Shown in pieces: positions 15,143-55,513 of a DNA stretch of 64,000 bases (its first letter is position 1; every line of letters starts with the position of its first letter). The stretch is from Acholoe squamosa (lineage: Eukaryota > Annelida > Polychaeta > Phyllodocida > Polynoidae), in assembly GCA_949317995.1 (NCBI GenBank), contig OX439035.1, positions 3,214,181 through 3,278,180 on the forward strand, given 5' to 3'. The translations under genes were made by a program, and so were the position numbers. Under the pieces are notes generated by a model. That model saw nothing but the letters and a program-made list of their open reading frames with translations, did not search any database and was not told where the DNA came from.

Positions 15143-16161
15143 GGTTCGAACGCTGTCTTCAAACCCAATCCGGAAGTATTGTCTAGCCTACAGCTAGATT
15201 CTGTCGACACTCTGGTGGGAAATGGATCATGGACAGTAGCCCCTCTCATGAACAGAGGACGAAACCCTGTTTACTTGAAGAAAAACGAGAAAATTGGTGA
15301 TATGTTCCTGACCGAACATATCTTGGAAGCTCAATTCCGGACTGAACTGCCTGACGGCATAGTCCGAGGATTACCAGATGATTTCAGAAAATTAGTGGAT
15401 GATTCTTCCCTGAGAAACAGTTCAGAGAAAGAAAGGCTTCGAACTTTGCTTGCTACATTCCGCGAGGCCTTTGGGAAACCTGGGGGCTCGGTAGGTCGTA
15501 CTAGCAAGGTGTTACACACGATTGACACCGGTGATTCGAAGCCGTTCAAAATATCCTATAGGAGATTACCACTGAAAAAGAAAGTGGAGGCCGAAAAGCA
15601 AATTCTCGAGCAGCTGGAAAAGGGGGTTATTGTGCCTAGCATGAGTCCCTGGTCCAGCCCCATGTGTATGACCACGAAGAAGGATGGATCTATCCGATTT
15701 TGCATAGATTACCGGAAGTTGAATGGTCTGACTAAAAAGAATTCCTATCCCTTACCAAGGATAGACAAGACTTTAGACTCTCTAGGAGGAAACAAATATT
15801 TCTGTACCCTGGACCTTCAGTCCGGGTATTGGCAAATCGGGATGGACCCAAAGGATATGGAGAAAACTGCTTTCTTGAGTCACATGGGTTTATTCCAATA
15901 CAATGTTTACCTTCTGGACTGTGTAATGCACCAGCTACCTTCGAAGCTATGATGGATGAGATGCTAAGAGACCTTCTCTGGAAGAGTTGTTTGGTATACC
16001 TCGACGACGTTATAGTATTTGGAAAGACTTTCGAGGACTGTATAAACAACCTCGATTTAGTCCTGAAAAGAATACTAGCAAATGGTCTGAAATTAAAGGC
16101 TAAGAAATGTAATTTATTTAAATCATCCAGTACTTATCTTGGTTGTATAATAACTCAGTAG
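15143..16161 (+). pseudogene. pol: Element A reverse transcriptase, truncated
   Basis: Copies element RNA into DNA. In order: the spacer before RT, then FKISYRRLP, KDGSIRFCIDYRKLN, LDLQSGYWQIG, and after a frameshift near 15.88-15.90 kb the core GLCNAPATFEAMM and the catalytic YLDDVIVF. Sequence stops with STYLGCIITQ and a TAG at 16159-16161, the point where related elements continue into the RT thumb and RNase H. RNase H and integrase are absent from the element. Nonfunctional, but clearly Ty3/Gypsy by its YLDD box and motif order. Confidence 0.88.
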
Positions 16162-16893
16162 GCTTAAGGAGGCATCGAAACCAGACGAGTTCCCCGCACT
16201 GTCGGACACCCAGAAACCAGGCCCCGAATCACAGACCCTACTGTCATCTGGGAAACCGAAGCCTATAGGTCCCCCGGCTAGCCCTGCAACCACCTCTGCT
16301 CGTGGACGGGTTCAATCGGCGGATCCAAAGCGACCAGGCAGAGAGATGGTGATGAAAGACCCCACTCAACCCCTAACCGAGGCTGGAAGGGGGCGAGGCA
16401 TCACCATCGACGGCAGTGGGGCGTGGGCGGATCGTCTTGACATCCCGGCACTGCCACCCCATCCCCAAATGCTACTGCCACCTCGAGCTCTGCTTATGAG
16501 AGCGGCTCAGATACACACACGACCCCTGTTTCAGTGCCTCCAGTTAAGAGCATGAAGACCACCAACGTGCTACACTTGGTGAAGTCGAACCTCAAACTGG
16601 AGAACCCCAACGACTACATTAAGAATCGAACACAGGAGTCCTGTGACATCCAGGCCGACGTCTTTAAGGCGTGGCAAGAGAGGCACATTAGCCAAGCAAC
16701 CATCTTTCGCCGTTTGGATCTGCAGACAAGCAGTGAACACCCCGAAGACATCCCCGAAGTTTATTACTATTGTGCAGCAATCCCACTACACTGGTGGGCT
16801 GCTATAAAGTTATATATTATATATTGTACAGTTAACCACTATTTTTTTCCTACCTTACGCATAGTATTAACTCTATTTAAATATCGATCCTAA
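16162..16893 (+). pseudogene. Possible 3' coding remnant of element A, unrecognised
   Basis: After the RT stop the sequence keeps a coding-like character. First comes a proline/serine/lysine-rich frame (about 16164-16500), then a second frame (from about 16510) with an acidic/basic helical-looking stretch around KTTNVLHLVKSNLKLENP and KAWQERHISQ, ending near 16893. I do not recognise a domain. It sits where element B carries its third ORF, so it may be a remnant of an equivalent ORF. That link is positional inference only, as I see no clear shared motif. Confidence 0.35.
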
Positions 16894-17168
16894 CTTCGTC
16901 CACTAGGTTTAATCTCATAAAATATGTCTATTTATCACTAGTAAAAAGTTACTTTTTTTTTTAAATTGAAATCAAAGTTTATTGAGCCTCTCACAATTTA
17001 CAGAATCGTGGTAAATGAAGCACAACTGGAATTATAGTCAAACATCTCTCAGTAAGTCAAACACAATCATACAATCAAGAAAAAAAAACTACAAATCATA
17101 TTCATACGGTTAAATAGATACCATATCAAATTGTACACCATATCAATTTTGTAAAAATTACATACAAT

Positions 17169-17636
17169 TGTAGTGTTCTACCCCTCGATGTTCAATCGAA
17201 TCTTTCGATAAACAACGAAGAACAACTATTCAGGTTCCAGGTAAAACTTTATTGTCTAATAACACATAGGCATCAGCCGTTCTCGATCACAGTTACAGGT
17301 GGCAGAGTTTGAACTCTAAAACAGGTTCGACACTAGGCCTTCTAGTGTCTACAGTTGATATTCCACATACACCTCCTCTGTGCAGCAGCACAGAGGAGTA
17401 CTAGAATATGGTAGCCGGGCAGCCGCCAACCATCGCTCACGATGGTCAGTCAGGGCTGGACTGACCCTGAGGAAGGCCGTAAAACGGCCTTATATACACT
17501 GGAGTTGAGGGCCACGTGAACAAGTGGTGACGTGGCGCAGGACTCCAGCGCCCCCAGGCGTCGGGTAATAGAGGTGCTCTCGACGTCGCCCACGAGGACC
17601 ACGAAGGTACCTCGAAGACGACGCGGGACCACCACA
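17169..17636 (-). repeat. 3' LTR of element B
   Basis: 468 bp, same length as the copy at 29260-29727 and differing at only a few positions (e.g. GGGCTGGACTG vs GAGCTGGAGTG). On the minus strand it begins TGTGGTGGTCCC and ends GAACACTACA. It includes a TTATATAC segment that could serve as a TATA box. Confidence 0.95.
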
Positions 17637-17694
17637 CCACCCCCCACTAGACTGAAACGAGGTCTCTGAAAATTCAGAGACCCCGGATCAGTCT
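17637..17694 (-). promoter_or_regulatory. Element B polypurine tract and adjacent hairpin
   Basis: On the minus strand the bases directly before the 3' LTR read AGTGGGGGGTGG (17637-17648), a polypurine tract that primes plus-strand DNA synthesis. Immediately internal is a strong two-part hairpin. A 10-bp stem GGTCTCTGAA/TTCAGAGACC (17661-17682) is enclosed, across symmetrical 5-nt internal loops, by a 7-bp stem AGACTGA/TCAGTCT (about 17649-17694). Confidence 0.75.
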
Positions 17695-18229
17695 AAACAA
17701 TTAGATAATAATATGAACTACTGGATCCGTCGACATAGTCGACAGAAACAGTAGAGGAATATATAGAAATATAGTTTCTACTGTACTGTAGAAAAAAATT
17801 ATTATCACAGTTAATTATAAGGCGTTGCTCCATCCAACATAGGAGACCAGTGTCGAAACACTGCTTCACGACCTGCTCCTGGTCGATCCGAGGGAGGCAC
17901 GACCGGGTATGGCAACCGGGGTCGTGTCGTTTCCTCCCTGTCTCGTTGAGAAGCTCCTTCCAGCGTAGGAAGCCCATCGATAGTGTATAGTACTACTATG
18001 ATGGTCCTTCGACCGTGAGGCCGAGGATGTGTGGCACCACCGGGCCCTAAGACCAGGGTGGCGTCGGATCCACACAGCTTCGCAGGAAGGTCCGGGGACT
18101 GGAGAGGTACCCCCACTCGTGGAGGGTACACCGTCGTCCGGGAACGAGTTCCCGGGGGTTCCGTGCTGACATCGAGACTCTGTTCGATGTCAGCGATCCA
18201 AGCTGAAGGGGAGGAGCAGTAGTATCCAA
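17695..18229 (-). other. Element B 3' untranslated stretch between ORF3 and PPT
   Basis: AT-rich near the LTR, GC-rich toward ORF3. Several short frames exist but none has a domain or continuity with ORF3. I see nothing else to annotate here. Confidence 0.5.
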
Positions 18230-21200
18230 CTACTGATCCTCCGAGATGGACCCTGTAGCGGCGTCGTTTTCAGCCTGCTCTCCGTCAGTGCACTCCTCCT
18301 CATGTGAAGCGCTGGCGGCTAGCTGGCCCGAAAACGTCGGCGACTCCGGCAATGGGGCCACACGGTCCATTGTCGTACTCCAAGCCTCGTTAGAGGTCTC
18401 GGGTGCATCCCGGGAGTCCCCCTCAGCATCTGAGTGGAGAACGGCCGAGTCTGCTGAGTCACTTCCGTCGTCGTCGTCGCTCTCCTGACCTTCATGGTCG
18501 TCCTTGTCTCCCTGGTCAGGGGGAGCCGTTGGAGATTGATCGACGACATCGACATCCCCGTCTATATCCATCGACTGTTCCGCCTCAGCAGGTTCTACTG
18601 CTTGGGCGGAAGCCGACGGGTCCGGGCAGACGGCTACATTCGCCGGGGCCAGAGGTGTGATGCCATGAAGATCCGGATGGATCCTCGGTGACACCACTCT
18701 CTGGACCGGTGGCGGTGTAGGCTCGGTGGCTCCCGAGAGGGTTATCAAGGGAACCGAGGAGGAAGACGGGGCTGCTGGTGGGTAGACGGAGGCGCCGAGA
18801 GACCTACCCGGGGTGTCAGGCTTGTCCTGTACCACCTGCTCTCGGCCCAACATCGTCATAGCCGAGCTCAGACTGTCCATCTTTGGAGACAATTCTCTCA
18901 AAGGATTCGTCTGAGCCGCCAGCGTCCTGACGTCAGGGACCACTCCACCCTCGACGAGGTACCTCTGCGTTTCGCGAGAGGGCTCGGTTCGAACGGGCTT
19001 CAGGGTTCGGACGCCATGGTGCTTGTCCTTCATCCATTCCGAGAGTTGGACCCCGAAGACTCTGAAGAATTCGCGGTCGATTTCCTCCCAGCCTTCTATG
19101 ATACTATCCCTCTTGGTAATATCATATTGGGCTTGTGACTCAAAGTTATTGAGACGCGTTCGGACATCGGTCAGACGAGAGTCCATCTCCATCTGAACGG
19201 TCTGGCGCGCCTCATCCCTAAGAGCCGGAAGGAGCTCGTTACGGATGGCCATGTTTGTTCTATCAAACAGGCCGAACAAGTAGGCACTCGCTTCCTCATG
19301 AAATGCCTCACGGAATTTGTCGATAGCAGGGCTGCCCGTCATCTGTAGAAGTCCCTTACAACGTTCCACGAACGTCTTCGGGATCCCACGCTCGACGCCA
19401 TCGCCGTATGCAGGCTGTGCCAACTCCCAACGCAAGGTTGCTGTCGGGGTGTCGGCGCCTGTCACGACGTTGGAGAAGCTAGCTCCTGCTGCCGAGGTCA
19501 GTGTCGCACCTCCCACGTGGACACGCGGCGTGGCAGCTGGGGTGCTGTCTTCCGCCGCCGCAGGGGGTTTGACAGGGGGAGACGAGTTGGTGGTCACCTT
19601 GGGTTGCCGATCACGACCACTCCGGGATTCCACCGTCTTGCCTCCAGTTTTAGCACCACTGGTGCTTGGTTTGGCCGAACCGGTCGAAGCAGTCTTCGAC
19701 TTTTTAGGAGCCGGGGCCGGGGCGGCTTTCGATGCCTTTTCGGGCTTCGAGGGAGCAGCCTGCGGCTTAGGCTTCTTGGGTTCAGTCGAACCGGCAGACT
19801 TCCCAGCTTCTGTAGAGTGGGGCCTCTTGTTCCCACTCGTAGAAGCTGTCGGTCCTGGGTCTCGAGGACGACTGGCCTCCCGCTTCTTCCGTTGCTCTAC
19901 CCTGAACTCGGGGTAGGCACCGTAGAAAGCGGGCATCAGTTCCGGTCTGATATACAGGCACTTCGTAGACGGGGGTGCGGGGGCCATCCGCATCCAGAGT
20001 CTAGTCGGCGCGCCTGTCTTTTCATTCCATCCACACTTTCCAACCAGTGTCTCCACTAGTTGGATAGCGCCCTCGGCGTTGTACTTATGGGGCTGCTTGT
20101 ACGACTTGAGATGACGCGCCATCAAGCCCCTTCGTGAAGTCACGAAAGGAGGAGAGGTCGGGTCATCAGGGTCCTGATAACATGGAATGGTCTTTTCCAC
20201 CTTAACACAACCGAACTGCGGAGGGATGGCTCGATGCTCTTCAACCAAGTGTCGAGCATACCTGCCGTCTGTCGCGTATACGCGAGGGGGGAACCCCTTA
20301 CGTGTGCAGTTCTCGAAAGCACACTGCTGCCCTGGATTGAAGATACGCCATGCGAATCCAATCCGCTGTCGCTCGGGCAACGACACCCCCGACGAGTCCG
20401 AGGCATTCGTGATATTCTCGATCATCGAGACATACCAGTCAATGGCATGACTATCATCCGAATACCATTCCTCGTCGTCACTACCATCCTTCCTGACGAG
20501 ACTAGGGAGTACCACTTGACCGTTCTTGCGGTAGTCCTGAAGCTTGGTCAGTGGCCTGTCATCGACGTACTCAGTACGTCGTTTGGCAGTGATCGCTGAC
20601 AGCCGCTTCCACTCGTCGACAGCCTTGGCCGTGTCTGGGGGTGAGGATACGGTGCTCTCCACGGCACCGGCATCGACCTCCGATGGCTCGGTTCCAGGCT
20701 TCGGTGGTGCAGTAGACTCGCTACTCCTTTCCCGGGCTGGAGCCTTCTTGGCTGCGGATTCCTTCTTGCTACCTTCCTTCTTGGGCACCTTAGGGATCTT
20801 GAAGTCTTTCAAGGTACCCTTGGATGCCTTCGATTCAGTGGGCTTCTTGCCCTTAGAACCTGAAGGGTAGCACTTTTCGATGGAGCAGGTGTCGACGGCT
20901 CGTCGACCTCCATCTCGTCGGGGGAGGAGTCCCTCGAGGCGGCAGCAGCTGTGACCTTCAAGTCGCGCTTCTGCTGCTTAGATGCCTCTTTTGCCTTCCG
21001 GCGGAGCTACTTCTCCCGCTCCTGGGGCTCGGCCAAGGCTTTCTGTGCTTCCTCGATCTGCTTCAGAAGGGCTGTACTTTTAGCCGAGGTAGACTCGAGC
21101 TCTTGCTCGGGTCTGGTCCTCTTGGACTTCTTCTTCTTCTTCTGCGACTTGTGGCTCGCCGAAGAGCTGTACCCTGACTGCTCGTCGGACGAGGACCCCA

Positions 21201-21444
21201 TGGTTCTTCCTGAACTGCTGGGTTCCACCAGGGAGAGAGAAGACTCCGGGTCTCGAACCGTACTCAGACGGGACGAGACGTCGAAGAGGATCTTCGAGGT
21301 ATTTCGATCCGCACTCTGGCGGGTCGAAGCCTCGAAGGCGCCTTCGATGTACCTCGAATCTGCACTCAGGCGGTTCGAGGGACCGAAGACTGGAGCCTCG
21401 AGAGAACACGAGCCTGCGCTCACGCAGGTCGTGTCCCTCGACAC
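18230..21444 (-). pseudogene. Element B third ORF (ORF3): zinc-finger, low-complexity protein
   Basis: A long open frame (18230-20812, about 860 residues) downstream of integrase. It extends upstream through one frameshift (near 20.87 kb) and one TAG (near 21005) to about 21444, for a likely original length near 1,070 residues. Visible features in order: Ser/Lys-rich N-terminus with KKKKKSKR; Lys/Pro/Ala-rich segment; a C2H2-like finger (CX4C ... HX4H, about residues 165-200 of the long frame) followed by a second Cys/His cluster; a basic Ala/Pro/Ser linker; a helical region around AIDKFREAFHEEASAYLFG; and an acidic C-terminus with DDDDGSDSADS. There are no membrane segments or signal peptide, so it is not an envelope. 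The finger and basic tracts suggest nucleic-acid binding. Function unknown; I do not recognise the family. Confidence 0.65.
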
Positions 21445-21962
21445 TTAGGCAGGGGAGACCTCCTACACTCAGGTAGGGAGTCCCTGGGGCGGAGTATACC
21501 AGCTGGAATAAGCTAGGCTTAGTCCAGCTAATCTGCATCCGACTCTTACGAGAAGGCCGCAGATGTGACCTCCGTGGTGTGCGGCGCGGCCTTTTATCCC
21601 TGTGGCGCACGCCTCTGATTGGAGGAAGGGCCTACGTGACCGAGGAGGGCGAACCCTATTGGTCCACAGCGCATCACGCCATGACCAAATAAGGTAATGC
21701 TCAAAAAATAGAACGACTCACTCTCCCCTCACCATCACGCTCTGGTTCTCCAGTCGCAATGTTTGCATATGCCGTTATTTCCTATGCGGTCTATGGGTTC
21801 CAATACTATTAACATGGATAATTTGGGCACCCCCCCCTTCATCAGACTACCGGGATTAAAACAGATTTACCCAAGAACGGCACCTGTTATTTTAAAGCCT
21901 TATTAAAAACACAGTAAAGCTGCTGCTTAGTATTGTGCGAATCATCGATTACTGAGTAGGGT
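21445..21962 (-). other. Spacer between integrase and ORF3 of element B
   Basis: About 0.5 kb without a convincing frame. It contains AT-rich segments and the phrase CACCCCCCCCTTCATC near 21830. It may hold an ORF3 leader or splice signals, but I cannot identify them. Confidence 0.45.
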
Positions 21963-23542
21963 TTAATCTAGGACTTTTCCTGATTCTAGCCCGCCATCCT
22001 TTGATGTGGCCGGGCCAACCGGGCTATTAACCCGTTTCCGTCGGCGTCTGCCTCCCATCACTTGTGACGGTGTGGATGTAGGAGCCGGAGTGTTTGCTCT
22101 GGATTTCCTTTCATCCTTGACACTCGTTGACCGTTCCTTTGATGAGCCTTGGCACTTGAGCCTCGCTCGAGTCATAGGTCCGGACTGGAGTGACTGATCT
22201 CTGACTTCAATCGAAACGTTTCGATGTGAAGTTTGTTTAGTCGTTCGCACCTTCGAGGGGGGGTCGGGCTTCCGACATCCCTTCAAAGGCTGTTTAGATG
22301 TTTTCGACTTATCTCGACGGGCCGGTCGACCACAGCACCGCTTTGATGGTTTACTGGCATCCAACACCTCCACCTCGCTCAGTTTTCGAGCCTTTTGCTG
22401 TCGTTTTCGATGACCCTGCATAGTTTGTTTTTTAGACTGAACTTCCGGCCGCGATCTTTCGATCTCTTTTTCGTCCTGTCCAGAAACAGACTTAGCCCTT
22501 TTCGTGGCCTTACGAGAAGGTGAATCATCATCAAGTTGTGGTTGCAACAACTCGACAGTTTGTGATAGCTCTACGCCCAACCACCGGCGCACTCTATCGA
22601 CATTGCTCTTTTGCAACCGCCCGCGGGATGATCGAAGTAATAATGTCGACTCAGAGAGGACAGAATCCACTACGAACGGCCCATCCCAGATGGGGGCAAG
22701 CTTCATAGCTGCCTGGGGGTGTGGTACCTCACCACCTGTTCCCCAACTGAGTATCTTCTCTGCTTTAGCCCATAGTCATACCCGACCTTCTGGCGTTCCG
22801 CAGATTTACCTAGGTTTTCTCTTACCATGCTGTAACTCTCCCTCAATTGGTCACAAAGTTGTTCCACGAAAGTGACGGAACAAGGGACTTCGAGTGGGTT
22901 CTCGATTGAGCCGAAAATCACATCCGCTGGCATGAGAATTTCTTCCCCGAAGACCATCATATTTGGACTGCATCCAGTAGAACTGTGTTCAGAGCTGTTA
23001 TATGCCGACACCACATACTTCGCCTGTTCATCCCAGTCGTCCATATGTTTGTCTACCAACATAGTCAGACTCTGAATCAATGTTCTATTGAACCTTTCTA
23101 CCTGACCATCGCTCTGTGGTCTGTACGGATTGGTTCTCTGTTTTACAATCGTCAAATATTCACACATCTCAGAGAAGAGTCGAGACTCAAATTCTCGACC
23201 TTGGTCGGAATGCAGAAGCAACGGGACTCCAAAGGTCAAAACCCATTCATCCACGAAGGCCTCTGCACAGGTCTCTGCTGTGTGATTTGGTAGGGGAATA
23301 GCGCGTACATACTTGGTGAAGTAGTCCTGGATTACTAACATGCAAGTATTCTTGTTTGGCGTGGGTGCAAATCCCGAGATGATATCCATAGCTATCCTCC
23401 CGAATCTCACCCCGAACAACTCTTGGTGCAGAGGAGACTTACCCATGCCCTCGCCGGGCTTTACCAGGCAACAGGTAGGACAATGCCGAACCCAACGACC
23501 TATGTCCTTTCCCATTCCGGGCCAGTAATATCTCCTTTTCAC
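21963..23542 (-). pseudogene. int: Element B integrase with GPY/F module
   Basis: DDE integrase that inserts the cDNA. The HHCC finger is split: its histidines (HGHRTAAHFGR) lie just before an in-frame TAA at 23558-23560, its cysteines (CPTCC) just after. The catalytic core follows, with D in AMDIISGF, D in LLHSDQGREFES, and E in PQSDGQVERFNRT. A one-base loss in a C-run near 22715 shifts the frame. The next frame then reads KLAPIWDGPFVV, the GPY/F C-terminal module, followed by a long Lys/Arg-rich tail to 21963. Restoring the C-run would make the module continuous with the core, so this is one gene with a small lesion (or a sequencing error). The basic tail of about 200 residues is longer than usual. 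Confidence 0.88.
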
Positions 23543-23557
23543 TTTTTCGAGCGTTCG

Positions 23558-25290
23558 TTAACGACCAAAATGTGCCGCTGTTCGGTGTCCATGGCAAAAG
23601 GAGAGTACCTCGCCCCTCAGTTGGCGTGGTACAACTACTTGAATCGTGCGTCTAGCTCGACCCGCCTCGACTTTCCAGCAACACAACAAGCCTTCACGGA
23701 AGGTTAATAGAGGCCATTGCCCTACTAATTTCCGTACCTCGGCGCTCTCGATTGATACATCAGGCCTAGTGGGTTTAGCCCCCTTAACTAGCCATTCAGC
23801 AACTCGTTTGATGTCGGTGTCCGCTTTCTGAGCATCAATGAGTTCATCGAGAGACCAAAATGCAACACCCACCCGGCTGTCTACTAAACTACCTACAGCT
23901 GCCAAAACAGCATTATGACTGCCACAGTCTGTGCAATCCGACCTCTGGCATAGCCGCACAGGCATACGACTAAGACCATCGGCGTTTAGATGCTTGGCCC
24001 CACTTCGATGTTCGATCTTAGAGTTTTCGAGACCGAACTCCGAAAGGTGGGCCAGCCACCTACCCATCATCCCTTCAGCCTCTTTGAAATTCAGGAGCCA
24101 TTTCAAAGACGAATGATCGGTGCAGATAGTGAAGTTACCACCATAGAGGTAGTGCCTAAACTTCCTGGTGTACACGACAACCGCCAGCAGTTCCCTTTTG
24201 GTGGTGCAGTAGTTTCGTTGTGTTTTACTTAGAGTGTTGCTAGCAAACGAGATCGGGACCTCTGCTCCATCCTGCACTTGGGATAGAACAGCCCCGATCG
24301 CGGTATTACTAGCGTCAGTGTCCAAGATAAAACGACCGTCGGGTGTGGGGAATCGAAGCACAGGTGTCTCCCTGAAACTTCGTTTTAACTCGACAAAGGC
24401 ATGTTCGGCTCTTTCCGTCCACGCGAATGCCTCGTAACGACCTCTACTACCTTTAGGTTTTTGGATCACTAAGTCCTGTAAAGGGCTTACGAGTTCCGCG
24501 AACCCCGGGATGAACTCTTGGTAGTAGGAACAAAAACCAATGAAGGATCGAATTTCCTTCACTGTAGTGGGCCTAGCCCAAGTCATTACATCGCTAATTT
24601 TCCCCGGGTTGGCTTCTATACCCTGTTCAGACACGATTCGGCCCAGGTACTCGACTGAAGTCCTAAAAAGTTGACACTTTTTAGGTTTCAACTTCAGTCC
24701 CCATGCCCGAATCCTGTTGAAAACTTCTGCCAGATTCGCCATTGCTTCATCCGTCGTTTTGCCGAAGACGATGATATCATCTAGGTAAACCAGGCAACTT
24801 TTACCCAGCAAACCTCTCAACATCTCCTCCATCATTCTCTCGAATGTGGCGGGGGCGTTACACAAACCAAACGCCATTCGATCGAACTCGTAGAGCCCCC
24901 TCTGGTAGGAAAAAGCGGTTTTCTCGACGTCGTCGGGATTCATCCCGATCTGCCAATATCCAGATTGGAGATCGAGACAACTAAACCACTTGTTTCCTCC
25001 TAGGGCATCCAAGGATTCGTCGATGCGCGGGAGGGGGTAGGCATTTTTCTTAGTCACTCCATTCAGACATCGATAATCAACGCAGAATCTCATGGTCCCA
25101 TCCTTCTTCGTCACCATCTGGACGGGACTGGACCAGGGACTAGTACTTGGCCTAACCACCCCCGTATCCAACATCTCCTTAAGTTGTTCATCCGCCGCTG
25201 CTTTCTTGCTGAGCGGAATCCTTCTATAGGGGACTCGGATAGGTTGTGCGTCACCCGTGTCGATGTTATGCAGACATCGATCGGTGCGCC
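23558..25290 (-). pseudogene. pol: Element B reverse transcriptase and RNase H
   Basis: Reverse transcriptase: PIRVPYRRIPL, KDGTMRFCVDYRCLN, LDLQSGYWQIG, FGLCNAPATFERMM and the catalytic YLDDIIVFGK, then the thumb (FIGFCSYYQEFIPGFA). RNase H follows with its acidic residues in FILDTDASNTAIG, TKRELLAVV and CTDHSSLKWL, and NADGLSRMP at its end. The motif order (RT, RH, INT) and the YLDD box place the element in Ty3/Gypsy. An in-frame TAA separates this block from the rest of integrase. A frame change near 25290 separates it from the protease. RT of element A is clearly related (about the same motifs), so A and B belong to neighbouring lineages. Confidence 0.93.
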
Positions 25291-26268
25291 CTAACGGTTC
25301 ATCGTGCGGGTGCTCGCGATTTCCGCCGTCTCGATATCTGCAGCTTCTTGCTCGAGACGCATGATCACAGATCCTACCTCCGGTGAAGAGAGTTCACCGT
25401 TTCTGTCAGCGTACTGCACAGTACCGACTACCTGGCCTTTCTCCAGGACAATGTCTCGATTCAGTGGATTACAGACAGGAAACACTGTTCGACGGACATT
25501 GCTGACAAGGGGAGCCTCACCAACCAACCCAAAACTTCTCAGAGTTTTCAGGTCGGGTTCGACTATACCCTGTCGGTCTCTTTCCAGACCGTCGGATTTT
25601 ACCAAGACATCGCACCGATGTCTGGCAGGTATCCTAGTGGTCTGTGCTACTGAGGCTATCGATGACACTCTCTTCAGTTTACACTGATGGTGCTCTTCTA
25701 CCGGCTCGGTCATGACCAATTGACCCGTCCTTGGGTTCAGGATCATACCGTATAATGCCGCGAAGTCGAGCCCCAGAATGCCATCGTCAGCCACATCGGC
25801 CACTATTGGGCTAAACACATAGTGGGTCGATACGACCTTAAGAGGTAGAACCAATCGACCATAGGTCCGCATTTCGGCTCCAGACGCAGTGCACGCCGTT
25901 ATTCCCTCGTAGAGATTATCTGACGGCACTACTAACGTTTTCGCGAGTTCCCGAGAGACAATGGTGTGGCTGGCACCAGTATCTATCAGGAAGTCCAGAG
26001 AACGCCCTCGAATCTCTGCGGACAGGTACCATTGTTTCCCCGATAAGGGGGCGGTTCCTGCTAGCATTCTCAACCCTACGTCAGTACTCAGATCGATCCC
26101 TCTCTTCTTCAGAAAAGAGAGACAGGGATCATCTGAGGGAAGCTCTGTTGCGCAGACTCTGGCCAGCTGCCGCCTCAGGGCTTCTCTCCCGGCGTCGACT
26201 TTCACTTTCGATCCAGTCGAACCCTCGACCTCAGAGTTCGGGCTGCCAGCGCCCTGTTCCTTGGCCAT
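25291..26268 (-). CDS. pro: Element B aspartic protease region
   Basis: Open for 325 residues on the minus strand. The catalytic motif FLIDTGASHTIVS lies near residue 93 and the second conserved segment DDGILGLDF near residue 160, as expected for a retropepsin-like protease. The C-terminal half has no recognised domain and probably links protease to RT. This block alone carries no visible break, but pol as a whole does. Compare element A, where the second motif is altered to GIISLDF. Confidence 0.85.
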   Translation of the reverse strand: MAKEQGAGSPNSEVEGSTGSKVKVDAGREALRRQLARVCATELPSDDPCLSFLKKRGIDLSTDVGLRMLAGTAPLSGKQWYLSAEIRGRSLDFLIDTGASHTIVSRELAKTLVVPSDNLYEGITACTASGAEMRTYGRLVLPLKVVSTHYVFSPIVADVADDGILGLDFAALYGMILNPRTGQLVMTEPVEEHHQCKLKRVSSIASVAQTTRIPARHRCDVLVKSDGLERDRQGIVEPDLKTLRSFGLVGEAPLVSNVRRTVFPVCNPLNRDIVLEKGQVVGTVQYADRNGELSSPEVGSVIMRLEQEAADIETAEIASTRTMNR

Positions 26269-26392
26269 TGAGGCTTTTTCTACACCGACATCTTCAGAAC
26301 CCGACCGGTGATCAACCGGTGCCGCTGTGGTAAAGGGCTGGGACGGCCCTACCGGGACCTTACCTAGTTCCCTCGAATCTACTGTCGTCTGA

Positions 26393-28986
26393 TCAGGAGT
26401 GCCAGAGGTGCTGATACCTTGGCTTTTCGATGGTCGGGCAGCTCGATTGCCACGTCGAGCCGCCCGCCTCAGTTTTCCGTTGCGTCAGGTGGTAGACCTT
26501 TAATCGGCTTGGGGCAAGTTCGTGCGAAATGCCCCTGCTTCTTGCAGTTCCAACACTTGGCGTCCGACGGAGGGGTGCTCGGCTTCTCCGAGCTAGTAGC
26601 AGGGACATCCCCTCCCTCGATAACCCTGAGTAAATTCTTCAATTGACTCAGCGAGAAGGTCTGTTCCTGTACCTTGGGTTTGGAGGCCTTGTTTGGTGTT
26701 TTCGATTTACCACAGATTTCTGACTTTTCTTAGTCTTACTCCCCGCCCCGGGCTTCGAGTATGAGGACACTTCCCCCTGTCCCTCCTCGACCAAAGCGGC
26801 GTCGGCCAACGCCGACAATGCATTTGTCGAGGTAGGATTCACCAACTTCGGCAGGAGTTGTCGTTTCCGCAACAACTCGTCTGCCAAGTCCATGAGATCC
26901 TTGAGGGACATGTAAGTGCGCCACTCTCGAAGAACGTCTTGTTGTAAATCAACGTCATACAATCCTCCTATGAACAACTGGTTGACTTTGGTTATGAGCC
27001 GGCAAGACGTCTCAAAGCAAAGCCATAGGCTCTAATGCTTTCGTTCTTGCCTTGGCGTCTCTTCTCCATTGTGACAATGGGATCTTGAACGTTAGAAGTC
27101 ATTGCTTCCCTTACCATGTCGACCAGTCCATCCAAAGTCCCATCTCCATGCTCCTCCCATAGCCACACAGTATCAGCTGCGGGGCCATTTTGGAGTAACA
27201 TGAGGATTTGAGCTAATGCCATACTCGAGGTCCACACATTTACTCGACGGACGTGATTGAATCCGTGGTACCAACGGAGCCAATCATCCTTCCATGTAAA
27301 TGGAGGGCACTTGACTGACCTAGTTCGGGCTGGTTCATGCCCGATAGAGGTATTTTCAAACATTCTGCTTGATCTCCTGACCTGATCAAGAGCGAATGTT
27401 GTACCTCTTCTAGGTATTTGATGGTCCATCCCCATGTTTCTCATAGTCGTGTCTGCACGACTATGATTCATCCCCCAGGGGTTACCAGAATCGGCGTCAC
27501 TCAGGCGCGAAGCCTCGAATCTGATATCCCTATATTTGGGTGGATCAACATGTTGTTGGGTCGTGGTAGGGGTCGAGAACTGTCCGATCACTCCACTTAG
27601 ACCATCGGTGCGTGGCATCGAAGGAACAGGTTGGGTCCGACGTGACCTCAAATCAACTTTCGAGATGTCGTCGATTGCTCCCACCATTCTATCTATCTCA
27701 GCCTGCTGTTTTGAACGTTCCGCCTGTCTTAATTCCGACACTAGGAATTCCAGGCGGGCATGTTCGGGCTTCGAGAGATCTCGTTGCTCGCTGATGGCAA
27801 AGAGCTGCTTGACCTCCTTCATGGCACGATCAAGCCACTCTCTGTAGTTGGGGTTTTCGACTAGGTCCTCTTGAGTAGCAACTCTAGCAGTGCTGCATTC
27901 ACTACTTTGTTGCTTCTCTCGAAGTCTAGCGGCACGCAATTTCGATTCCGTCTGCTCCTTCAGACGTTCCTCGAGTGCGAGTTCATCACAAACTTCTTTA
28001 TTCACCCTGGCTTCATCAGCCTTCCTGCGAGACAATATCTCTCGTCGGAGCTTATCGATTTCTCCACGCATGGCTCCCAGAGTATCCGAATCCTTCTGAT
28101 CTTTCAGTGATTGGGCTACTAGGGATTCAGACTTCAAGGAATTAAGCTCGGCCTCGTGCCTCGCTTTTTGTTCCATTAGAATCTGATATTCTGCCATTTT
28201 GTTTGCGTGTTCGATTCGTTCCTCACAGCGACGACGCATTTCTGCCTCGTCCCTGGCTCGAGCATCCTCATCAGCTTGCATCTGACAGAGTAACGACTCC
28301 CGTTCCTGACATAGCTGTTTTACCTGCTTTTCATAAGCCGTTAGGTGCTCAGCTACTTCTTCAGTATGCTCGGCTGATTGTTGGTTCAACTCATGCCGCA
28401 ACTCTTGCAGTTGTTCCTCCAACATAGTCTTTTCTACTTCTTGTAGTTTCAACTTATGTTTAAGGGACGTCTGCTCGTGTTGGGCATCCCGAAAATCGTT
28501 TCGAGCTCTCTCGACACATTCTCGGCGGCTAGTAGCAAGGCGATCGATCTTCGCTTTTAGGGATTGACAATCCATTGCTGTCAATCGACTACGCTCGATC
28601 TCCGACTTCGTTGCAAGCAAGGACTCTTTTTCGCTAGAGAGCTGCTTGACCTTCTCCTGAAGATCAGTAAGTTCTCTCTTCGCGATCTGAGTCTTGTTCG
28701 AAGCCTCTAGCAATTGCTGCCTAAGCTGTTCCAATTTCAGCTCTATTTCTGTACTCTTCTCCTGAGCTTTCGTGGTGTTACTCGCGAGAGCATCCAACTG
28801 CTGGCGACCCTCGCGCAGTTGGCGTTGCTGCTCTTGCAGCAACTCCTCGTTGAGTCCCCTGCCACTGTCAATACTTCCTTGTATCGACACGGGCGAGGGA
28901 CCCTCGAAGGACCAACTGCCAAGGCCCATTGGAGTTCCCACGGGCGAGGCTGATTTTTCTACATAGGACAAACTCTGTGTCCTCAA
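26393..28986 (-). pseudogene. gag: Element B gag with long coiled-coil N-terminus and zinc knuckle
   Basis: The longest frame (26992-28986, 664 residues) starts with a Ser/Gly-rich leader. A heptad-rich Glu/Gln/Lys/Leu coiled coil spans roughly residues 45-350 and is followed by a capsid-like part (FTWKDDWLRWYHGFNHV, then GKNESIRAYGFALRRLA). Frameshifts near 26995 and again near 26650 break the frame; 26648-26977 continues the capsid (FIGGLYDVDLQQDVLREW). The nucleocapsid follows with an intact CCHC knuckle, CWNCKKQGHFARTC, at about 26510-26556. The coiled coil is an unusual extension for a Gypsy Gag, whose typical length is 250-450 residues. Likely role: particle assembly. It is degenerate now. 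Confidence 0.85.
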
Positions 28987-29245
28987 GAAATTCTCAGCCG
29001 CCGGAGAGAGTTGAGTCGATACTCACCAATTGAGTAGTCGGCTCCTTTGATACAGGCCCAACGGGTCAGACGATGGACCTATTATCAGGGAGTGGTTCAA
29101 ACCACCACCGATTAGTGGATCATTTCTATCCTCTAACGGGCCTGTAGTCACTTGATGTTGGTGATTGGGGTCATCACCTTCATCCAAGTGACCCTGCATG
29201 TCGAACTTAAGCTCGCAGTACATATGCGGACTAAAGTTAACAACT
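28987..29245 (-). other. Element B 5' leader
   Basis: About 260 bp between PBS and gag on the minus strand. It would contain packaging sequences. No ORF of interest is visible; I see no clear splice donor. Confidence 0.5.
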
Positions 29246-29258
29246 GGTCACGGCACCA
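29246..29258 (-). promoter_or_regulatory. Element B primer-binding site
   Basis: Minus strand reads TGGTGCCGTGACC one base after the LTR end. The first 12 bases match the complement of the 3' end plus CCA of animal tRNA-His (…GTCACGGCA-CCA), from established tRNA knowledge. Element C has the same 13-mer at the same place. Confidence 0.8.
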
Positions 29259-29259
29259 G

Positions 29260-29727
29260 TGTAGTGTTCTACCCCTCGATGTTCAATCGAATCTTTCGAT
29301 AAACAACGAAGAACAACTATTCAGGTTCCAGTTAAAACTTTATTGTCTAATAACACATAGGCATCAGCCGTTCTCGATCACAGTTACAGGTGGCAGAGTT
29401 TGAACTCTAAAACAGGTTCGACACTAGGCCTTCTAGTGTCTACAGTTGATATTCCACATACACCTCCTCTGTGCAGCAGCACAGAGGAGTACTAGAATAT
29501 GGTAGCCGGGCAGCCGCCAACCATCGCTCACGATGGTCAGTCAGAGCTGGAGTGACCCTGAGGAAGGCCGTACAACGGCCTTATATACACTGGAGTCGAG
29601 GGCCACGTGACCAAGTGGTGACGTGGCGCCGGACTCCAGCGCCCACAGGCGTCGGGTAATAGAGGTGCTCTCGACGTCGCCCACGAGGACCACGAAGGTA
29701 TCTCGAAGACGATGCGGGACCACCACA
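29260..29727 (-). repeat. 5' LTR of element B
   Basis: 468 bp; mates with 17169-17636. It is the upstream LTR for minus-strand transcription and would hold the promoter. Flanked on the right by the target duplication CAAT. Confidence 0.95.
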
Positions 29728-30331
29728 CAATTATAGACACAACAATGAATCATGAAAAATATATGTAATAATGATAAATAATGATAGACAAAACAAGCCC
29801 AGACAAACAAGAACAAAAGTAACACAGGCTAAGGCAGAAATGTACAGGATTGTTGAAATTGCGACTCACAACATACACCAAACACATAAGCTTCTATAAA
29901 GGAGGGTTAACAATGTACAAAATTCTAGACACAAATATATTATGCTCAAACTAGTAGGATCATGTAAGGATAAAGTAAGAAAGAAAAGAGCACACTGACA
30001 TTCACACATACACAAGGCATGATAATAACAATAATAATAATAATAATAACAATAGCAATACTAATACTGATATTGGCTGTTATTTCTGATGATAATAACA
30101 GTAATAATACCAGTGATAATACCAATGATTAAGGTAAAGATCATTTAGGTCATTGAACACAATTTAGAACTCTATCGGGTATTAGGCGTGATCTCAAAAG
30201 CTGTCTGTATTCTGTTTTAACCAATCAGAGTACCACTACAACCAATGCAAGGCCAAAAAGTACAAAATACTCAGATGTAACAACAATAAAAAATAAATAA
30301 ATAATAAATCAATAAATGCTTAAATGCTTGC

Positions 30332-30889
30332 CTAGCCTATTCCAGGATCAGAATCAGAGTCCAAACCATCGTCACTGGTCAATATCAAGCTCCCGACTTC
30401 ATCAATGGAGTTGTAATCATCATCATCCTCGTCACCATCATCGCCCGGACCATCATTTGGTACTCCCAGATTTTCAATACGTCTGACTCTCTGCTTAAAC
30501 TTCAGTTTTGTTTCAGTATGTTGATACCAGGTTACTAATAGCGACCACAGTTCAGCACCGCGGTATAGGGGTGACCTTTTATATGTACTTAGCCTAGGTT
30601 GTTTAACCAAAAATTTAATTTTTTTATCTGACCTAGTGACCCTGTCACCTCTATGATGATCCAACATATCATTACATCTAGAGTACTTATACATCAATAC
30701 CAATAACATTTCATCACGTCTTCTATCCAAATATGGAACCTTGCTCCTTGTATGGAGTTCCTCAACAGAGAGATATTCCCTGTTATACCTATAACACGTT
30801 CTTAGACCTCGATTCTGAAGTCTTTGTGCTTTGACAAGATTATCTTCATTACTACAACCTGCATAAACAAAGCTGCAGTAATCAAACAA
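30332..30889 (-). pseudogene. LINE ORF2 C-terminal fragment
   Basis: 185 residues resembling the extreme C-terminus of a non-LTR reverse transcriptase: KAQRLQNRGLRTCYRYN, VEELHTRSKVPYLDRRRDEM, LLVLMYKYS, then SPLYRGAELWSLL. The same motif series (LQRLQNRALRVCLKCN, KELHEICKVPVLEKRFDM, SPWYRGVALWN) closes the plus-strand LINE at 35.0-35.4 kb, so the two are related. The fragment ends in a very acidic tail (GDDGDEDDDDYN), which is unusual. RT catalytic motifs are absent because the copy is 5' truncated. Confidence 0.8.
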
Positions 30890-31007
30890 ACTTAGTATAG
30901 TCGTTTTATAGCACTTGGTGCTATAAACCTACGAGATCTGTTACTTGAAATATTCATAATACTTCTCAGGCACCAACCAAATGTGTTCATAATTCGAGGT
31001 TAATAGT

Positions 31008-31010
<3 letters not shown>

Positions 31011-31058
<48 letters not shown>
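31011..31058 (+). repeat. (AT)n(GT)n microsatellite
   Basis: Alternating AT for about 34 bp followed by GT for about 14 bp. The region 31059-31419 is the AT-rich 3' internal end of element A. It finishes with the polypurine tract GGTGGGGGTAG directly before the LTR. Confidence 0.95.
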
Positions 31059-31419
31059 AAATGTAAAAAAAAAAACACAGTTACTGTAAACTGCTAAAAA
31101 AAGCTATTATATAGGGTTCATACGTGAACTATAAAAAAAATTCTTTTCGGTTTATGTAACACATTTTACCATAGATAATTACAAACATGTTCTTCCGAAT
31201 TTGTCTCAATCCATCTCCTTCGGTGTTTATAGTGTATTAATATGTTTAATTTACCTAATATAATTATATGTAGCCGACTCCAATTACTAAGACGTCACAC
31301 TAATAATATATCACGTTCTACTTCGAACTCCCGTTTATTACTTCGAGCTCCTTTATTATAGAATAACTGTTAAATATGTTCTTTTTTACACACCCCTTTC
31401 CTTATTCTGGTGGGGGTAG

Positions 31420-31777
31420 TGTAGGGGCTCGTAGATCGTGATATAGTGTGAGCGTCTTCCTCGAGAGGGCGTTTCGAGCGGTGCGCCCATCACCGGTAGT
31501 CACTAGAGGTCCTTACAACCCCTGGTCGCTGCGTGGTGGTGGCAGCACTGTTCGCCTCGCCCCAGGTCCTACCTGGGGCCGGGGAAGGTGTTAGTCTGGC
31601 TCTGACTGTCGACGGAGTCGGACCACCTTTTACCGAGCTTAAGATACCATTAAGCGATCCATATCGAGGTAGATGTAAACCATACACCGAAACAAATACG
31701 TGCCAGTTGCACTAACCCGAGATCCCTTGTCTGGTTTTAACTTCGAACTATCCAAGACATATATTCGAACCATTACA
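31420..31777 (+). repeat. 3' LTR of element A
   Basis: 358 bp from TGTAGGGGCTCG to AACCATTACA, directly preceded by a polypurine tract (31409-31419). It matches the 5' LTR remnant and the 356-bp LTR of element C. Followed by CTAT, the target duplication. Confidence 0.93.
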
Positions 31778-48094: not shown

Positions 48095-48280
48095 ATCTGG
48101 AGGTATATCCTTATCTAATAAAGGTGCACCCTTTCATCAATTTTTGGCTTGCACCATCAATATTTCCTTTTCTGAGGTTGTGGATCTCGAGGCATTCAGA
48201 GTTCGATCTCGGGATCCATCGTGCTCGTGTTCGGCCTCCAGGGCCATGCACTAAACACCAAGAACTGGTCACGGCACCAG

Positions 48281-52015: not shown

Positions 52016-54854
52016 ACATGCAGTAGGGTGCTACCACCTAGTGTTGTAAATTGGCACTGCGGCCAACACATTTCCCATTGTATAGGGTGTTTCCCCATTA
52101 GGGTAGATTAACCTTAAGACGACCACATACCTAGAGTCGACCACCTGTCGGCTTGTTTTTCACACTTTCACATGTAGTGCATTGGTCTTAAACCCTAATA
52201 TGATTGAAATAGAGGTGTTATAGTACCCCAAACAGGGCTGGGCAACTATCGCCATGTAGCCAATAAGTGGCGACATTGGCCTTGAAATTGGCGACACCTA
52301 TATTGAGAGTGATCTCTAGATTCCAACAGTGAACGAATTTTTCAAATATTCCCATTAGAACCAAAGTTATGAGGTGGTTCCCAAATCAAGTCACCAGAAT
52401 GCATATTTTGACGTAAGAATTTTCACAATTTTCTCAGGGAAATGATCCCACCCCTCCTCCATTTCCCAATAAAGCAGCTTCCTGCTATCTTTTATTTTAT
52501 AATTACTTTTTTCTTTTGGAGTGGGAAGTGAAATTCTCTTTTAAGGCCTTTACTCCTCCCTCACATCCTTCTCAATCCCAGCATTATCTCAGCATTGCAG
52601 AGAGCATAGGCAGCAGAACAAGGGGGCAGACCCCATCCCCCCAGTGTTGCCGAAAAGATGCCAGCATGCCAGCTTTTGCCGGCGTATAATGTAAATGGCC
52701 GTCGTAGGGTCTTGGTACGCAGAATGGCCTGGCATAATCTGAGCTTTCTAATGGCGAAAGAATTTTTCAAATCAGTCAATTAGAAGCAAATGTACAGCTG
52801 TTTATGTATAATCATTTATAATACAGTTTATACCAGTGCCTTACCATGTCAATATTCATATGGCCTGCGTGATAGGAAAATGGCCTGCATAAGATGCTAG
52901 GATGCAGGCCACATTGGCAACACTGCCCCCCCCCCTCAATTTTTTGGACAACTAAGGAAATATTGGCCTGACAGCAAATCCAAGGTACAAATTACACAAG
53001 CCAAAATCTATTCAAAATATAGCAATTTAATGGTAAATTCTAAATTTTAAGTCTCCGCCAAACTGACTCACCTAAATGTTTGCCCCCCTCCCCCAAATTC
53101 ACCCCTGTTATGTAGGGTCATACCTCTAGTCTGAATATCTGATACATGATATTGCATATGACCAAAACATAGATTAGAGTGGTCCCTCAACTCAGTCTAC
53201 TTTTCAAAATACTATTGTAGATTTGGCCAGAGAGAATAGGTGTCATGGAAACTCCTCAGTTTTTTTTCACTTTTCTCAGTTTACTTTTAAAATCCACAAG
53301 GGACAATCTTGTGATTCATCCAGATCCAATGAGAATTCTTGTGTTCAGGTAACAAATTCCAAAAAATTAGGGTAGATAGGTTGGACTTTTTTTTTAATCA
53401 TTGGCTGTCCAAAATTATAGAAAACTTTGTTCAATGGATAATTACAAATGTAAAGATATGGAAATGTCAGTTATTTTAAGCTAGGAGAGGATGGGCTTTA
53501 ATTTGATACCAAATATGCCTATATTTTGCCATTCATCCTGATTTTTTATCAAATAAATTGAACATAATTAGGGTCGGGCCAAACAATTAGGATTGGTCAG
53601 GATACCTGAACACAACATTTTTTTAGGCCTAAGGAGTGGCTGGAAAATTATGAGTCAGTATAGCTCTCAAGATGCACCAGAATGCACCAAATACCCTCAA
53701 AAACCACTTTTCCTATACCCCCCATTACCCATATTGCTATGTCACACTTATAAATTCAATTCGCCTTGCTTGACAACCCAAATAACCCATTGAGATAGGC
53801 CTAGATCCATCGCCAAAATGTATTTCCCACCTTTGCACTGTTCTGTAGACATTTGTAATAAGTGGTTCAGGGAAGCCTCTATAATTATTAGGTTCTAGAA
53901 ATGCACCAGAATGCACCAAATGCACTCTGAAATTAAAAATTTTCCAGGGGTGGGTGGGGAAATGTCCCCACATACTGCAGGGGCGTAGGAAAAGGGGGGG
54001 CCATGGTAAATTGGATAAGAAGCTAAAACTTTCATCTCAAATAAGATTACTAAGTTAAAAGGATAGGGAAAATTGGGGCCTGAGGCTCAAATCAGATCTA
54101 AAATTCATAAAAAAAAATTGCCTTATCTGCAAATTCTACATAAGTATGTAAAGGCGTCGTCACTCTTGAGATGACAATTTAAGGTGGTCGCAGTGGGCTC
54201 GCTGCTGCGCCCACCCCAATGAAGATTTGCTTCCTACACCCCTTATAGCTCCTCAAAGTCAGGGGTGCTGCTTAGTTTTTTTTTTAGTGCTGCTTAGTCT
54301 TTTTTTCTGAAAATTCTCGATTCACCACGATCCTCAGCTACAGCATCTCTAGCCTTGGCTCCAGGTTTTTCAGATTTGCCCATTTTTGACGAGATTTACA
54401 ATATCCATGGCCATAAAATTGTCTCTAATTTCCATTCTAATTGAGTCACTATAAAAACATACATTTTCTTATGATGCAATACTTTTAATTATGCCATTCT
54501 ACTGCATATCTATAGAAAACACTCATTCTTTTTTCAAATGATAGTTTAATGAACATAACCCCATTAAAAAAGTAGTTATCAAGTGGTCAGCTCAAGATGC
54601 AAGGTGGTCATCTCAGGGTGAAAATAGACTAACTGAAATGGTCTTAGAAATGATGACAAACAGTAGATAAACTTTTCACATGGATTTGAGAAAGGTAATT
54701 GGTCCAAAAGCCCAAAAAATTGTCTTTTACTTAGTACCTTGGGGAACCCTAAGGACCAATTAGACTCTAAGATATTGGCTACTACATTTCCCTCATTGAA
54801 AATCTGCACAGGAATGGCCATCTTTGGGTTGAAGATGGGTACCTTTGTAGTAAC
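52016..54854. other. AT-rich intergenic stretch
   Basis: No supportable gene. The phrase ATGCACCAGAATGCACCAAAT occurs at about 53672 and again near 53899, each about 25 bp from a GGAAAATTAT or AATTTTCC sequence, suggesting a decayed foldback repeat. Short ORFs have no domains. Confidence 0.5.
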
Positions 54855-55074
54855 TGTAGGGGAATGTGATTTCCCCGTGCGCGATGTGCTGACTCTCAGG
54901 GGCCGGTCGTCGTGTAATCACATGTCCCCTCTCTGTGTCACCCCAGTCCAGCCATGGGTGGAAGGTAGAAAACGTTGTACGGGGAAGTAGCTCAGTGGTA
55001 GAGCAATCGTCTGAAGGCTGACAGGTCCCGGGTTCAACTCCCGGTTTCCCTAAACGTTTTCGCCGACCCCTACA
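54855..55074 (+). repeat. TRIM left LTR
   Basis: 220 bp. The 5' 126 bp holds GATTTCCCCG, ATCACATGTCCCC and CACCCCAGTCCA; then the 72-nt tRNA-like unit; then CGTTTTCGCCGACCCCTACA. The TGTAGGGG...CCCCTACA ends are an 8-bp perfect inverted repeat. Confidence 0.88.
54981..55052 (+). tRNA. tRNA-like gene in left LTR (anticodon loop reads GAA)
   Basis: 72 nt that fold as a tRNA: acceptor GGGGAAG/TTTCCCT (two G-U pairs), D stem GCTC/GAGC, T stem CCGGG/CCCGG with loop TTCAACT, discriminator A. Box A (TAGCTCAGTGG) and box B (GGTTCAACTCC) match the Pol III consensus. A TTTT terminator follows four bases after the 3' end (55056-55059). The anticodon arm is weak: loop CTGAAGG, stem ATCGT/CTGAC with only three of five pairs. 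It is therefore probably not a translating tRNA. Anticodon GAA would be Phe; that assignment is tentative. Confidence 0.75.
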
Positions 55075-55075
55075 A

Positions 55076-55088
55076 TGGTAGGGAAACC
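55076..55088 (+). promoter_or_regulatory. TRIM primer-binding site complementary to its own LTR tRNA
   Basis: TGGTAGGGAAACC begins one base after the LTR. Its complement GGTTTCCCTA-CCA equals the last ten bases of the tRNA-like sequence in the same LTR (55043-55052) plus a post-transcriptionally added CCA: 13 of 13 positions. Because CCA is not encoded after the LTR tRNA (AACG follows), the match reflects a mature tRNA, not copied DNA. Confidence 0.85.
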
Positions 55089-55166
55089 ACGTGGTCCTGA
55101 CCCACCTGAGGGGGGCTACGGAACTCGGTACCTGGGCTGGTGTGACACGGCAGGCGCTTCGTCCGC

Positions 55167-55182
55167 CCGGTACTTGTACCGG
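55167..55182. promoter_or_regulatory. Palindromic hairpin in TRIM interior
   Basis: CCGGTAC-TT-GTACCGG, a perfect 7-bp inverted repeat in a GC-rich internal region. In retroelement RNAs such short self-complementary hairpins often act in dimerisation or packaging; that role is inference here. Confidence 0.45.
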
Positions 55183-55293
55183 CAGTTGACCAGGGAATCG
55201 GGAATGCCTCGCACTGCTTGATAAAGCCCAATCGTCTGGTTGGGAGGAGAGCCGGGTTGTTGTTCAGCGGTGGTCGAAGCTGGTTGGGGGCTG

Positions 55294-55513
55294 TCTAGGG
55301 GAATGTGATTTCCCCGTGCGTGATGTGCTGACTCTCAGGGGCTGGTCGTCGTGTAATCACATGTCCCCTCTCTGTGTCACCCCAGTCCAGGCGTGGGTGG
55401 AAGGTAGAAAACGTTGTACGGGGAAGTAGCTCAGTGGTAGAGCAATCATCTGAAGGCTGACAGGTCCCGGGTTCAACTCCTGGTTTCCCTAATCGTTTTC
55501 GCCAACCCCTACA
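55294..55513 (+). repeat. TRIM right LTR
   Basis: 220 bp mate of 54855-55074. Roughly ten substitutions, many C/T or G/A. One alters the second terminal base (TC instead of TG), another the T stem of the tRNA-like unit. Confidence 0.88.
55420..55491 (+). tRNA. tRNA-like gene in right LTR
   Basis: Same 72-nt unit as 54981-55052, with ATCAT for ATCGT in the anticodon stem and ACTCCTGG for ACTCCCGG in the T arm. Box A is intact, box B and the TTTT terminator (55495-55498) also. The last ten bases that would pair with the PBS are unchanged. Confidence 0.7.

Follow-up and report, generated by a model that had tools for sequence, protein, structure and literature searches.

The window, by which we mean the whole 64-kb stretch of DNA that was analysed, contains a short LTR element and several larger ones (Table 1). 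The short element has a total length of 659 bp, and each of its LTRs measures 220 bp when the TGTA...TACA ends are included. The two direct repeats are 96% identical over 218 aligned nt (54857-55074 vs 55296-55513). The right LTR of the window copy starts with TCTA, where TGTA was found in 28 of 29 examined copies, and the 4-bp target duplication around the element is imperfect (TAAC/TAAG). The motifs AATAAA and TATA are absent from the whole 659 bp. With a lower limit of 120 aa for stop-to-stop frames, one antisense frame of 156 aa overlapped the element, and a protein search with this frame returned 16 candidates, none of them at E <= 10. Directly downstream of the element, at 55907-57916, lies a tandem repeat with a unit of ~1.0 kb (spacings 998 and 1001).

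Table 1. Features of the short LTR element and of the larger LTR elements in the window
Feature	Position	Strand	Basis or remark
Left target-site copy TAAC	54851..54854	+	3 of 4 bases shared with the right copy TAAG, 55514-55517
5' LTR, 220 bp, TGTAGGGG...CCCCTACA	54855..55074	+	repeat alignment
tRNA-like gene, 5' LTR	54981..55052	+	ARAGORN tRNA-Phe(GAA); Rfam tRNA 54.6 bits
Pol III box A (presumed), TAGCTCAGTGG	54988..54998	+	read from sequence
Pol III box B (presumed), GGTTCAACTCC	55031..55041	+	read from sequence
TTTT, candidate Pol III terminator	55057..55060	+	4-base trailer between tRNA and TTTT
One-base spacer, LTR to PBS	55075..55075	+	read from sequence
Primer-binding site (PBS) TGGTAGGGAAACC	55076..55088	+	complements LTR tRNA 3' end plus CCA
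G-rich tract GGTTGGGGGCTG before 3' LTR	55282..55293	+	polypurine-tract position; T and C inside
3' LTR, first bases TCTA in the window copy	55294..55513	+	repeat alignment
tRNA-like gene, 3' LTR	55420..55491	+	ARAGORN tRNA-Phe(GAA); Rfam tRNA 52.5 bits
TTTT behind 3' LTR tRNA	55496..55499	+	T-run scan
LTR element A, LTR start TGTAGGGG	12778..31777	+	CTAT target copies on both sides; broken by nested element B
Nested element B	17169-29728		PBS on -; LTRs nearly identical
PBS TGGTGCCGTGAC of element B, presumed tRNA-His type	29247..29258	-	12-nt match to tRNA-His
PBS TGGTGCCGTGAC of a relative of element A, presumed tRNA-His type	48268..48279	-	12-nt match to tRNA-His

Elements A and B are candidate Gypsy-type elements, judged by reading, in A by its frames. 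The nested element B has RVT_1 and RNase H domains by Pfam. A relative of element A lies on the minus strand at 47.2-48.6 kb, and the primer type of element A was read in this relative, the 5' LTR of A itself not being intact. The PBS TGGTGCCGTGAC, which we take to be of the tRNA-His type from its match to tRNA-His over 12 nt, stands one base past an LTR ending in TACA in both element B and the relative of A. A PBS match of 12-14 nt behind a one-base spacer is therefore not odd in this genome. The window also has two duplications. The copies at 35348-41018 and 41271-46941 have a repeat spacing of 5923 bp, are 100% identical in the 300-bp pieces that were compared and contain the same long frames; in the first copy, Pfam recognised a BIR-domain frame and a Death-domain frame, and five relatives of the latter were found by protein search. 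These two frames point to an animal host. The other duplication (1-3375 and 7597-11109) has a spacing of ~7.7 kb and includes a 48-bp tandem repeat.

The 72-nt tRNA-like unit that the sequence-only reading had described in each 220-bp LTR of the short element was recognised by ARAGORN and Rfam in both LTRs. The boxes A and B of the unit, which we take TAGCTCAGTGG and GGTTCAACTCC to be from the Pol III consensus, are intact as judged by eye. The earlier reading was also right that CCA is not encoded next to the LTR tRNA: AACG follows, and then TTTT. In either LTR a T4 run occurs only just behind the tRNA, and the element has no other. The scarcity of TTTT runs was considered as an adaptation to Pol III and rejected, because G+C-matched stretches are equally poor in TTTT. 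The acceptor, D and T arms of the units are paired and the anticodon arm is degenerate, with 2 of 5 anticodon stem pairs non-standard in both LTR copies; the complete anticodon stem of a functional host tRNA gene is thus missing from the LTR units. A preserved acceptor and T arm together with a degenerate anticodon arm are more in keeping with a primer than with a tRNA used in decoding. The minimum-energy folds of the two units were no better than those of shuffles (z -0.81 and -0.27).

All 13 positions of the PBS of the short element are complementary to the 3' end of the LTR tRNA with CCA added, and its location one base past the left LTR agreed with the earlier reading. It is the sole site with at most 2 mismatches in the 64-kb window and has itself 0 mismatches; shuffles give 1.9. 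Since the PBS starts with TGG though no CCA is encoded after the LTR unit, a matured primer is indicated, the CCA being the strongest hint.

The genome was then searched for copies (1.48 Gb in 63 contigs). The search with the element gave 43 matches from the best 40 scored of 2941 candidates, and 41 of these 43 span 574 or more bases of the 659-bp element. Thirty copies (L001-L030) were compared, among them the window's own locus; L002 has the flanks of the window locus. The PBS position was readable in all 30. The form TGGTAGGGAAACCG was found in 17 copies, TGGTAGGGAAACCA in 4, and other base changes in 9. The 14-nt form ending in CCG, present in the 17 copies, lengthens the match by one base when compared with the LTR tRNA end that occurs most often, and no correlation between PBS base 14 and the T-stem variant was seen by eye in the 30 copies. 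Exact 4-bp target duplications surround 13 of the 30 copies, where 3 without a readable right end were scored as misses, and they were found in 23 of 29 elements whose LTRs were called exactly at TGTA. The G-rich tract 5' of the 3' LTR is almost invariant among 29 copies; it contains T and C in the window class and is mostly GGTTGGGAGGAG in the other classes. Several insertion sites of L001-L030 read by eye as TA-NNNN-TA around the 4-bp duplication, which suggests a palindromic target preference.

The decisive test was whether LTR-tRNA 3' end and PBS co-vary between subfamilies, as the sequence-only reading had proposed to examine. For this we used a pattern consisting of box B, 15-45 bases, CTACA, any base and TGG, in which the tRNA 3' end and the body of the PBS were left free. 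It had 2000 exact matches in the genome (1075 forward, 925 reverse); the pattern read backwards as a control had 0 and 1. The sample analysed is the first 70 of 100 listed places among the 2000 matches, all on contig C1 and therefore non-random, and comprises 68 distinct matches.

In these 68 matches the outcome was strongly positive, and PBS and LTR-tRNA 3' end shift jointly over at least four tRNA 3'-end classes. The GTTTCTCCA class occurs with the PBS TGGTGGAGAAAC in 39 of 47 loci, GTGTCTCCA with TGGTGGAGACAC in 8 of 8, GTGATCCTA with TGGTAGGATCAC in 4 of 4 and GTTTCCCTA with TGGTAGGGAAAC in 4 of 4. Five loci belong to rare classes (GTTTCCCTT, n=2; ATGATCCTA, ATATCTCCA and the Gln-like GCGAGACTA, n=1 each), and each of them is one base short of the exact 12-mer. 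Longer 3'-end strings of the TRIM classes are CGGTTTCCCTA, CGGTTTCTCCA, CGGTGTCTCCA and CGGTGATCCTA. The LTR tRNAs have Ala-, Gln-, Phe-, Asp- and Ser/Cys-like backgrounds. Acceptor stems are still paired in the classes that were checked by eye, so that the two acceptor strands and the PBS seem to vary jointly as a set of three stretches.

The fit is at least 13 of 14 positions in 59 of the 68 matches. The observed sum of fits was reached by 0 of 10,000 permutations of the tRNAs among the loci, in which relatedness was ignored and two of the 3'-end classes are one base apart. The earlier statement that a 13-base match by chance is very unlikely is borne out by this result and by the co-variation over the classes. 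In the 59 two-LTR elements, the fit to the 5' LTR tRNA was 14/14 in 32 and 13/14 in 21; with the better LTR counted, 56 of the 59 fit at 13 of 14 positions or more. Below 12 of 14 were L074 (11) and L092 (5). Nine matches have no second LTR downstream, and six of them fit at 13 or more; one of the three below is a 3' LTR. The nine matches with a fit below 13 of 14 are L048 (a second match, 3' LTR), L051, L055, L061, L071, L074, L092, L096 and L100.

The joint change was also followed in pairs of loci with a similar backbone and a different tRNA. The window copy L046 and the loci L062 and L065 are 93-94% identical in their internal parts (over 200 and 185 nt), and their tRNAs are 79-80% identical. 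Their first 13 PBS bases differ exactly at the two positions where the tRNA 3' ends differ, and the PBS of L065 additionally differs from that of L046 at base 14. Upstream of the tRNA the LTRs are just 77% identical. In the Ser-like L103 and the Ala-like L044, this upstream LTR is 97% identical over 121 nt and the internal part 81% over 246 nt; the tRNAs are 79% identical and the PBSs differ accordingly. The locus L042, Asp-like by ARAGORN, is 94 and 92% identical to L041 and L045, respectively, over 170 nt of the internal part, and the best local match of its tRNA to theirs is 18 nt; the upstream LTRs of L042 and L041 are 81% identical over 77 nt. The swap pairs are similar only in parts of the backbone.

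When all pairs with a like backbone and different end classes were counted in the 59 two-LTR elements, with the discriminator-T loci L051 and L059 excluded beforehand, both PBSs fitted their own tRNA better in 97 of 120 pairs. In 20 of the 23 exceptions one partner is L060 or L061, each the sole locus of its class, which have changed bases within the match region of the 5' LTR tRNA, and three involve a GTTTCTCCA partner (one of them L092). Because backbone stretches that are 92-97% identical carry a jointly changed tRNA and PBS, shared ancestry alone is insufficient to explain the fit. The locus L066, a Gln-like TRIM of ~490 bp with a tRNA in its LTR, has a tRNA-PBS relation of 13/14; its upstream LTR and internal parts gave only short, chance-like matches to eight other representatives. 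Since L066 has no clear backbone similarity to them, the arrangement may have multiple origins.

It is of interest whether host tRNAs would match the PBS better than the LTR tRNA does. The 3' ends of 22 animal tRNAs match at most 6 contiguous bases of the window PBS, initiator Met being the best. A whole-genome pattern for the tRNA-like 3' end CGGTTTCCCTA of the window class with a non-LTR trailer had no match; it covers trailers without A at base 1 or 2 and with a TTTT in the next 12 bases, and this one T loop. For the window class, a better match to a host tRNA than to the LTR tRNA, which would have refuted the earlier reading, did not turn up with this one pattern and the 22 ends. When eight LTR tRNAs were compared with 15 animal tRNAs, the best identities were 72-82%; the LTR tRNAs are thus diverged, and the PBS still follows the diverged form. 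With an animal tRNA-Ala as the query, the best 40 of 694 candidates were each 92% identical over 72/72 bases, and 30 of these best 40 form a host tRNA-Ala array at C15:5088323-5127130.

From these comparisons, the element is very likely a Helenus-like TRIM, a miniature LTR retrotransposon that is non-autonomous and has in its own LTR tRNA gene the source of the primer for reverse transcription. The anatomy, the 4-bp target duplications, the complementarity of PBS and tRNA and their joint change on similar backbones are observed. On this basis Pol III, directed by boxes A and B, would transcribe the LTR tRNA and terminate at TTTT; tRNA processing would trim the transcript, and CCA would then be added. 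The mature 3' end could pair with the PBS one base past the 5' LTR on the genomic RNA, which in turn may arise when Pol III reads through the first TTTT, or may derive from another promoter. Reverse transcriptase and integrase would be supplied by a Gypsy-type element. The LTR tRNA may have a promoter role alongside priming. In retroviral plus-strand synthesis, the 3' end of the primer tRNA is copied into the PBS of the new copy. For this reason a PBS is a record of the primer that was used. The role of the LTR tRNA as the matching primer, as it had been put forward from the sequence alone, is supported by the joint change of tRNA and PBS between subfamilies. We consider it probable that there is a whole superfamily of LTR retroelements with private, element-encoded primer tRNAs, in which tRNA and PBS form a subfamily-specific lock and key, stay matched because the primer is copied into the PBS whenever an element is reverse-transcribed, and in which entire tRNA modules of different origin have been swapped together with the PBS.

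The intact boxes A and B would also be expected if the LTR tRNA were a Pol III promoter only and its match to the PBS had arisen by coincidence or drift, and the LTR tRNAs of Helenus have been read as promoters (PMC10886601). Coincidence is excluded by the co-variation across several classes and by the tRNA/PBS swaps on like backbones, which leaves this reading very improbable. That the two 220-bp blocks are just two SINE insertions, each with a tRNA-like unit with boxes A and B, would have refuted the earlier reading; it is itself refuted and has next to no chance: SINEs have no LTRs and insert by tail-priming, whereas here 4-bp target duplications enclose whole elements with LTR pairs, and the other copies contain the PBS and the G-rich tract.

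More serious is the capture of a primer, in which a host tRNA primes each subfamily, the LTR holds a captured copy, and PBS and LTR tRNA stem from one host gene. The several tRNA backgrounds among the LTR tRNAs would fit this, tRNAs packaged beside reverse transcriptase would be handy templates for capture, and for classes other than that of the window, a host tRNA may share the 3' end. However, for the window class the one pattern found no non-LTR gene with this 3' end, and the window PBS matches the diverged LTR form and none of the 22 ends; we regard capture as unlikely. The element could also prime itself in cis, if the 3'-terminal tRNA unit of the genomic RNA were processed, given CCA and folded back, or paired in a dimer, onto the PBS. 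With the T4 runs of the element confined to the position just past each LTR tRNA, a transcript made by Pol III readthrough would start and finish with a tRNA, and priming from an element's own RNA is known from Tf1/Tj1 (PMC4600332). Strand transfer would be awkward, though, with the primer still attached to its template, and a separate tRNA from the many LTR copies is simpler, so that priming in cis appears doubtful.

The enzymes would come from a helper, and the type of element A is a candidate. Element A resembles the TRIM in its TGTAGGGG terminus, in having a G-rich tract and in the 4-bp length of its target duplication, which is CTAT in A; element B and the relative of A share with it the one-base spacer 5' of the PBS. 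A helper should have the same PBS as its TRIM according to PMC4558846; against this expectation, helper and TRIM would here use different primers, because the PBS of the relative of A is of the tRNA-His type. Elements A and B also differ from the TRIM in that they are coding and that ARAGORN found no tRNA in their LTRs, and their PBS is presumably of the tRNA-His type.

By the usual description, LTR retroelements borrow a host tRNA or, in some plant lineages and the Tf1 group, use the 5' end of their own mRNA. A tRNA primer encoded by the element and co-evolving with its PBS would, if true, be a third arrangement and would give independence from the host tRNA pool. LTR tRNA units would then have a function beyond that of a promoter, and the published conclusion that they do not prime would be reopened. 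Annotators would also be warned that retroelement primers may be behind many predicted 'tRNA genes'. If the superfamily reading is true as well, the LTR copies across the genome would be dispersed primer-tRNA genes. The natural tRNA/PBS swap pairs within one genome make the primer idea directly testable.

TRIMs with tRNA-derived sequence in their LTRs have been published under the name Helenus (Kojima 2024; PMC10886601; also TRIMp3) and were mentioned later in a meeting report. In PMC10886601, the animal families have 4-bp target duplications and probable Gypsy helpers, and their PBSs match host tRNAs at the 3' ends or the anticodon loops. Section 3.6 raises the LTR tRNA as a primer and then finds none that is complementary to the PBS, and because of this the LTR tRNA was judged not to contribute to priming. 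By its anatomy our element is a TRIM and Helenus-like. It is shorter than ~1000 bp, does not code for proteins of mobilisation, and has a PBS and a polypurine tract between its LTRs; like Helenus it has in each LTR a tRNA unit that includes boxes A and B, which ARAGORN and Rfam recognise as tRNA-derived, 4-bp target duplications and a probable Gypsy helper. Unlike in Helenus, it is the LTR tRNA of the element itself that the PBS matches and with which it co-varies; the match to host tRNAs and not to the LTR tRNA is a reported observation on Helenus that stands outside its definition.

Measured against the accessible parts of these sources, only the primer relation is new. The earlier reading, whose interpretation of the primer is supported, had compared the arrangement with borrowed host tRNAs and with Cassandra-type TRIMs and had missed the published Helenus TRIMs with a tRNA in the LTR. 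No description of an element-encoded tRNA primer was found in the open-licence literature at the level of titles and abstract openings. Relatives were sought with three patterns in viral contigs and with one pattern in genome contigs, none of which had an exact match. Five viral-contig matches to the PBS of the GTTTCTCCA class lie in a near-identical stretch of five contigs, which is preceded by neither a tRNA nor an LTR end, and were rejected as chance; the SURF1 lead in sea urchin gave nothing useful. Bivalve TRIMs are described as lacking a clear PBS (PMC6934838).

The plant TRIM Cassandra likewise has a Pol III gene within each LTR, which is 5S rRNA in Cassandra and a tRNA unit here. A primer role for the 5S unit is not mentioned in the accessible text of PMC10886601. 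Self-priming is known from Tf1/Tj1, where the primer is a 5' segment of the element mRNA (PMC4600332), and priming from the mRNA 5' end has been predicted in some plant lineages (PMC6317226). As in Tf1/Sushi, Tj1, Tcn1 and TAR, the element itself would provide the primer. In contrast to their mRNA 5' segment, the primer here would be a tRNA-like RNA, since the PBS starts with TGG and the CCA is unencoded after the LTR tRNA. In conclusion, the mechanism would work like tRNA priming in its form and like self-priming in its source.
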